From assembly GCF_019931275.1 (NCBI RefSeq), contig NZ_JAIOTY010000002.1:1012131-1076130 (forward strand): a DNA stretch of 64,000 bases, read 5' to 3'. Position numbers and translations under genes: made by a program. A model generated the notes under the pieces. It did no database searches, had not been told where the DNA came from, and saw only the letters and a list, made by a program, of their open reading frames with translations. Source of the stretch: Nitratidesulfovibrio sp. SRB-5 (GTDB lineage Bacteria; Desulfobacterota; Desulfovibrionia; Desulfovibrionales; Desulfovibrionaceae). Positions 14,475 through 15,307 of the stretch are shown one piece after another; within the stretch, counting starts at the first letter, position 1, and every line of letters begins with the position of its first letter.

Positions 14475-14795
14475 TCAGAAGTTCAGCACCCTGTCTGCCT
14501 TCAGCATCTCGTCGTACAGAAACTGCTGGTTGCCTCGGGCCACCGTATCGTCAGCATCCACGCCGTGGATGTCCTGGCACTTGCCTCAGGCGGCCAGCAC
14601 ACCCTCGCTGAGTGAGAACAGCCGGGCCAGGTCGCGGATGGGGAACGAGGGGCCATCGCCCGCCGCGTAATCCGCTGCCGGACCGTTGAGGAAGATGGTC
14701 ACTTCCTCGCCCTTTTCGAGCAGGAAGTTGCCGAAGCGGAAGGTGTTCCAGCGGATTTCCGGGTCTGCGCTGGAAAGGACGATCAGTATTTGCAT
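14475..14795 (-). CDS. DsrE-family selenoprotein (in-frame UGA read as Sec)
   Basis: Small DsrE/F-like protein (106 aa with read-through), a family linked to persulfide and sulfur relay in the cytoplasm. The N terminus MQILIVLSSADPEIRWNTFR and the later FLLEKGEEVTIFLNGPA are typical. After 69 residues (…EGVLAA) the frame meets a UGA at 14586-14588 and then continues for 36 good residues (GKCQDIHGVDADDTVARG…) to a second UGA. In relatives this place holds the conserved Cys of an ACGxC motif, so the UGA gives U-G-K-C with the partner Cys intact. A SECIS-like hairpin follows at the right distance. GGAG precedes the ATG. Stop-at-UGA annotation would give a 69-residue truncated product. Confidence 0.85.
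14552..14576 (-). promoter_or_regulatory. Bacterial SECIS-like element
   Basis: On the coding strand, 10-34 bases after the UGA, CAG, a GA bulge, CATCCAC, a GGC loop, GTGGATG and CTG form a 7+3-bp bulged stem. A small apical loop beginning with G, centred 22-24 bases after the UGA, fits the bacterial SECIS rule. No SelB-binding test can be made from sequence alone. Confidence 0.75.
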
Positions 14796-14818
14796 TTCAA
14801 ATGCTCCGCTGTCTGTTT

Positions 14819-14998: not shown

Positions 14999-15307
14999 CT
15001 AGCCGAAGGGATTCAACGGCTTCAGCCCAAAACCCACGGCATGCGACGGAGCGGCCAGGGGGCGTCCTTCGCGCAGATCGGACAGGGCCTTGGCCAGTTG
15101 GTCGGGACAGGAGGTGGGCTTGTTGCCGCAGGTGATGCCGACCAGTTTGTCGATGGCGTCCTGCACCGGCATGCCATCAAGCAGGCGGCCAAGGGCTTCG
15201 AGGTTGCCGGGACAGCCCCCGGCAAAACGCACGTCGCGCAGCATGCCGTCGCGCACATCGAACTGGATCTGCTTGCTGCAAACACCGTTGGGAACATGAA
15301 CATGCAT
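14999..15307 (-). CDS. TSCPD-domain protein (TIGR03905-like)
   Basis: Small cytosolic protein (102 aa) carrying the literal TSCPD motif (NKPTSCPDQLAKAL) after VGITCGN, and an N-terminal half with GGCPGNLEALGRLLDGM. These match the stand-alone TSCPD family, related to the C-terminal zinc-binding region of some vitamin B12-dependent ribonucleotide reductases. Three conserved cysteines could bind a metal. GGAG lies 8 bases before the ATG. It lies upstream of the DsrE-like gene on the same strand, with a 203-bp gap. Biochemical role unknown. Confidence 0.88.
   Translation of the reverse strand: MHVHVPNGVCSKQIQFDVRDGMLRDVRFAGGCPGNLEALGRLLDGMPVQDAIDKLVGITCGNKPTSCPDQLAKALSDLREGRPLAAPSHAVGFGLKPLNPFG

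Follow-up and report, generated by a model that had tools for sequence, protein, structure and literature searches.

A DsrE-like gene of Nitratidesulfovibrio sp. SRB-5 with a probable selenocysteine codon at an in-frame UGA

A DsrE-like reading frame continues through a UGA codon

The analysed window, a 64,000-nucleotide stretch of the Nitratidesulfovibrio sp. SRB-5 genome (4.12 Mb; nearest named relatives Nitratidesulfovibrio liaohensis, N. oxamicus, and Desulfovibrio sp. A2), carries a short DsrE-like gene with the following features:

14475..14795, minus strand: candidate selenocysteine (Sec)-containing DsrE-like gene, 106 aa plus stop, one UGA read through; matches Pfam DsrE (PF02635)
14586..14588, minus strand: in-frame UGA, codon 70, probable Sec codon; TGA kept in 49 of 199 family genomes, Cys codon in ortholog L070 and in CGTC relatives
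14577..14579, minus strand: TGC codon of the second (resolving) Cys, Cys73 of the UGKC motif, read from the sequence
14555..14571, minus strand: SECIS-like hairpin, CAUCCAC, GGC loop (14562-14564), GUGGAUG, supported by comparative pairing
14804..14807, minus strand: GGAG, a likely ribosome-binding site judging from the sequence, 8 bases before the ATG

The frame runs from the ATG at 14795 to a UGA stop at 14477-14475 and comprises 106 residues with a single internal UGA (14588-14586), which lies in the translated context AAUGKCQDIHGVD. A preliminary description of this DNA had read the minus-strand frame through the UGA and on for 36 residues to the stop, with a U-G-K-C motif that keeps its second Cys; the frame, its coordinates, both stops, and the TGC codon were all confirmed. 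It had also anticipated that default annotation would shorten the protein, and indeed the ORFs obtained with translation table 11, either 91 aa (TTG start) or 69 aa (from the ATG), stop at the UGA. This ending would be expected if the UGA were a genuine stop or had arisen by recent nonsense mutation, the tail then being a decaying pseudogene or the product a 69-aa protein, and such a reading also draws on the composition of the strand, where 24 of the 50 UGA sites in 12-17 kb of the window are followed by at least 36 open codons. Because openness of this kind is so common, the 36 open codons past the UGA were rejected as evidence in themselves. What does go beyond chance is the full-length match of the read-through protein to the Pfam DsrE profile (E = 2.3e-05, 25 bits against a cut-off of 22.7, residues 1-106 on profile positions 1-116), together with the conservation of the UGA and the downstream residues across genera, which bears out the earlier view that the residues after the UGA are family-like. 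A search of NCBIfam with the protein returned no named family.

The gene is surrounded by genes for a TSCPD protein, lipoprotein-like ORFs, and a Na/Ca exchanger. The upstream neighbour (14999-15307, minus strand) encodes a TSCPD-domain protein (TIGR03905) with four Cys residues and adjoins the gene only within the genus. No DsrF/DsrH or TusC/TusB genes were recognised among the neighbours, so that nothing adjoining the gene marks it as part of a DsrEFH- or TusBCD-type complex; DsrEFH is absent from sulfate reducers (PMC3397948). When conservation of the neighbours was tested, none was found to be retained outside the genus, and an operon-based assignment of function was therefore dropped.

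The UGA codon is conserved and alternates with Cys codons

Six other genomes of the genus carry the gene (92-97% identity), each with the UGA at the same codon, and the gene is absent from the seventh genome examined (G007), which has selA and selB. In the family sample, a match was detected in 56 of 199 genomes; 49, by the table count, hold orthologs with the UGA at the site, at identities down to ~50%. A sequencing error, one of the doubts attached to the preliminary description, is thus excluded, as the UGA recurs in six genomes of the genus and in dozens more, and homologs continue past codon 70 instead of ending there. Across many genera, dozens of genomes preserve both the UGA and the 36 residues behind it, which speaks strongly against a true stop, as does the pattern of substitution between two near relatives (L028 and L029), which together show 10 synonymous codon differences and only 1 non-synonymous difference in the region after the UGA. 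With the covariation of the downstream hairpin and the presence of Sec machinery in the genome, both described below, termination at codon 70 appears extremely improbable and is, as far as such comparisons can tell, in effect refuted by conservation.

The comparison with homologs suggested at the outset revealed Cys forms at exactly codon 70. One ortholog (L070, 49% identical) has TGC in place of the UGA and the motif CGKC; Cys is likewise found at this position in L101, L042, L047, L071, L120, and L126, and more distant CGTC-type relatives, with Cys in place of Sec, are common. A quick tree with 74 Sec and 16 Cys rows (90 in all) requires six switches between Sec and Cys, and well-supported branches force at least five of them. 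In this tree, L070 adjoins a Sec row with 87% support, which is under the level counted as well supported; since L070 groups with a Sec row, a change from Sec to Cys is suggested there.

Several genomes in the sample depart from the common pattern. One (G015; L038/L082), with an estimated completeness of ~95%, retains the UGA and an intact hairpin, yet has no selA at E <= 1e-60 and selB only below the cut-off; this case, which would reflect either errors or a recent loss of the Sec apparatus, counts against the Sec reading, as does the missing gene in G007. In another (G022), a segment of at least 4 kb is duplicated in inverted orientation with 99.8% identity, giving two copies of the gene (L073 and L074). 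In two further cases, L041 (G058) and L087 (G148), the N-terminal part is broken or frame-shifted and the region of the UGA and hairpin is intact.

A covarying SECIS-like hairpin follows the UGA

Bacterial SECIS elements are expected to have a small apical loop containing a guanosine (PMC1088965). The single-sequence fold energy of the window hairpin is ordinary in comparison with shuffled sequences (z = -0.38), and since this score is uninformative, the hairpin was assessed comparatively, across 29 distinct sequences numbered from base 1 at the U of UGA. These sequences share a 7-bp stem, formed by bases 18-24 with bases 28-34 and closed by a GGN loop, and 97.5% of the cells in the stem are paired. 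Compensatory changes occur at pairs 19-33 (A-U to C-G or G-C), 20-32 (U-A to C-G), and 21-31 (C-G to U-A), although 5 of the 29 sequences do not form pair 19-33. The covariation score of 0.121, against 0.039 in shuffles, was reached in none of 500 shuffles; with the partner strand shifted by 1 to 3 bases, pairing fell to 22-53%. RNAalifold recovered the same stem unaided. The window gene thus has, just 3′ of the UGA, a covariation-backed stem-loop whose small apical loop (GGC) contains G and starts 22 bases after that codon. The preliminary description had proposed a bulged stem whose GGC loop lies 22-24 bases past the UGA: the loop and the stem held, whereas the bulge is seen only in the minimum-energy structure of the window sequence. 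A bulge was accordingly rejected as a conserved feature, the conserved element being, by both covariation and RNAalifold, an unbulged 7-bp stem.

Most Cys forms have only a weak hairpin or none at all. The longest stem averages 6.9 bp in 72 Sec fragments versus 4.5 bp in 17 Cys fragments, with fold energies of -10.75 and -4.56 kcal/mol, respectively (Mann-Whitney p = 4e-8; the rows share ancestry, so that this p value overstates their independence). Together with the compensatory changes, this agrees with the earlier proposal that the hairpin fits the bacterial SECIS rule. An exception among the Cys forms is L101, in which 8 bp can pair, perhaps as the remnant of an earlier SECIS.

The host encodes the selenocysteine apparatus

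All four genes that the preliminary description had proposed to look for were found in the same genome: tRNA-Sec (selC, 83.6 bits), selA (615.7 bits), selB (358.6 bits), and selD (352.5 bits). The last of these contains one in-frame TGA of its own (L019:1501-2433), read as U in VKAAGUAAK, which is the usual Sec site of SelD; SelD would thus itself be a selenoprotein, and its UGA is, at the level of sequence, independent support for UGA being read as Sec in this organism.

These observations bear on the possibility that the UGA is read through with another residue, such as Cys or Trp, by a near-cognate tRNA. The presence of Cys at this position in homologs would be compatible with such decoding; however, the genome possesses the full Sec apparatus and a second UGA-bearing Sec gene, selD, and the hairpin is kept with the UGA and tends to be lost with Cys codons. 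Insertion of a different residue is hence very improbable. Collectively, the comparative evidence and the Sec machinery support the claim of the preliminary description that this DsrE-family gene encodes Sec at an in-frame UGA, and we place the probability that Sec is inserted at codon 70 at roughly 0.94. In the proposed mechanism, SelB and Sec-tRNA-Sec would bind the hairpin that closely follows the UGA and insert Sec at position 70, and the outcome would be a 106-residue stand-alone DsrE/YchN-like selenoprotein instead of a 69-residue fragment.

Such proteins have been described before. A 'DsrE-like protein' with Pfam02635 and a UxxC motif figured among the 15 selenoprotein families newly described in the 2005 Sargasso Sea study (PMC1088965), a bacterial survey in 2006 listed a DsrE-like selenoprotein in Desulfovibrio vulgaris (PMC1794560), and reviews from 2022 and 2026 retain DsrE-like selenoproteins as an established family, with WP_014524487.1 given as its example (PMC9312934, PMC13188914). 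The window gene shares with the published family the Pfam02635 domain, the UxxC motif, and a SECIS-like hairpin whose apical loop includes a G. D. vulgaris is one of the hosts of that family, and nothing essential sets the window gene apart, with the D. vulgaris protein compared by its description. Given the publication of the family in 2005 and the D. vulgaris entry of 2006, the window gene adds one more member to an established family, and its host is closely related to a species already reported to have one. The gene is a clean selenoprotein case with good support, and standard annotation would cut it short.

The protein is predicted to adopt the DsrE fold

An AlphaFold2 model built with 27 homologs has a pLDDT of 96.2. 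Among solved structures, it is closest to YchN (Z = 16.3), followed by a Sulfolobus DsrE-like protein (15.9), TusD (14.4), and DsrE (14.3); ten DsrE-type chains fall at Z 13-16, and the first unrelated match at 6.6. The modelled fold is that of DsrE, not thioredoxin. The single protein sequence gave no match when searched against solved structures, and of the solved chains compared with a sequence profile only YchN was significant (E = 3e-08). Escherichia coli YchN (PDB 1JX7) is therefore the nearest solved structure by both profile and fold, with 27% identity over 106 residues. The profile alignment places Sec70 on the first Cys of the YchN CKTC motif, so that the two proteins differ in having Cys in YchN and Sec in the window protein. 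DsrE of DsrEFH and TusD of TusBCD (PDB 2HY5 and 2D1P) have the same fold but are only 17-20% identical to the window protein. Sec70 falls at the end of predicted strand four, the expected place of the family's active-site Cys, and Cys73 follows three residues later.

Sec70 as a putative sulfur-reactive nucleophile

In DsrE, Cys78 carries sulfur, and the equivalent Cys78 of TusD is essential (PMC3397948). From this role and the alignment with the YchN motif, we infer by analogy that Sec70 would be a sulfur-reactive nucleophile. Most likely, in the cytoplasm of an anaerobic sulfate reducer, it would either take and hand on sulfane sulfur or cycle via a selenenyl-sulfide with Cys73, the chemistry and the partner being deduced; the 2026 review notes that, for almost all such selenoproteins, biological function is still largely unknown (PMC13188914). 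We give sulfur-carrier chemistry about an even chance of being the function of the protein.

Its main competitor, which we consider a serious possibility if somewhat short of even odds, is that Sec is inserted into a thiol/disulfide-type redox protein operating through a Sec70-Cys73 selenenyl-sulfide and not into a sulfur carrier. The UxxC arrangement, which is among the redox motifs of the Sargasso Sea study (PMC1088965), favours a redox role, whereas the fold is of the DsrE/YchN and not the thioredoxin type. Furthermore, in some relatives the Sec codon and hairpin are kept while the second Cys is replaced by Ser, Leu, or Ala, giving the motifs UQKS (L039, L040), UGKS (L122), UGKL (L105, L043), and UKKA (L124, L132), and a Sec-Cys pair is thus not essential to the family. 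As Sec is the sole chalcogen of the motif in these forms, a stricter version of the carrier reading can be put forward tentatively, although we regard it as rather unlikely: Sec alone would serve as a selenium-based sulfane-sulfur carrier (a Se-S relay) instead of half of a Sec-Cys redox pair, and Cys73 would be dispensable in the window protein too.

Variants within the family

Sec/Cys orthologs, compensatory changes in the hairpin, loss of the second Cys, and tandem copies offer material on what Sec adds to a sulfur-relay fold. Judged against the papers cited here, the loss of the second Cys, the UGVC clade, and the tandem Sec/Cys copies are perhaps less noted. This second Sec-containing DsrE clade, with UGVC, UGTC, or UGSC motifs, extends across the phylum (L044, L045, L103, L108-L112, L114-L119, and L134-L138), and its hairpin often has a six-base apical loop of the GGUCUG type. 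Sec and Cys DsrE-like copies stand in tandem within ~500 bases at L119, L124, and L132, and the genomes with Sec and Cys copies side by side are G463, G590, and G520.
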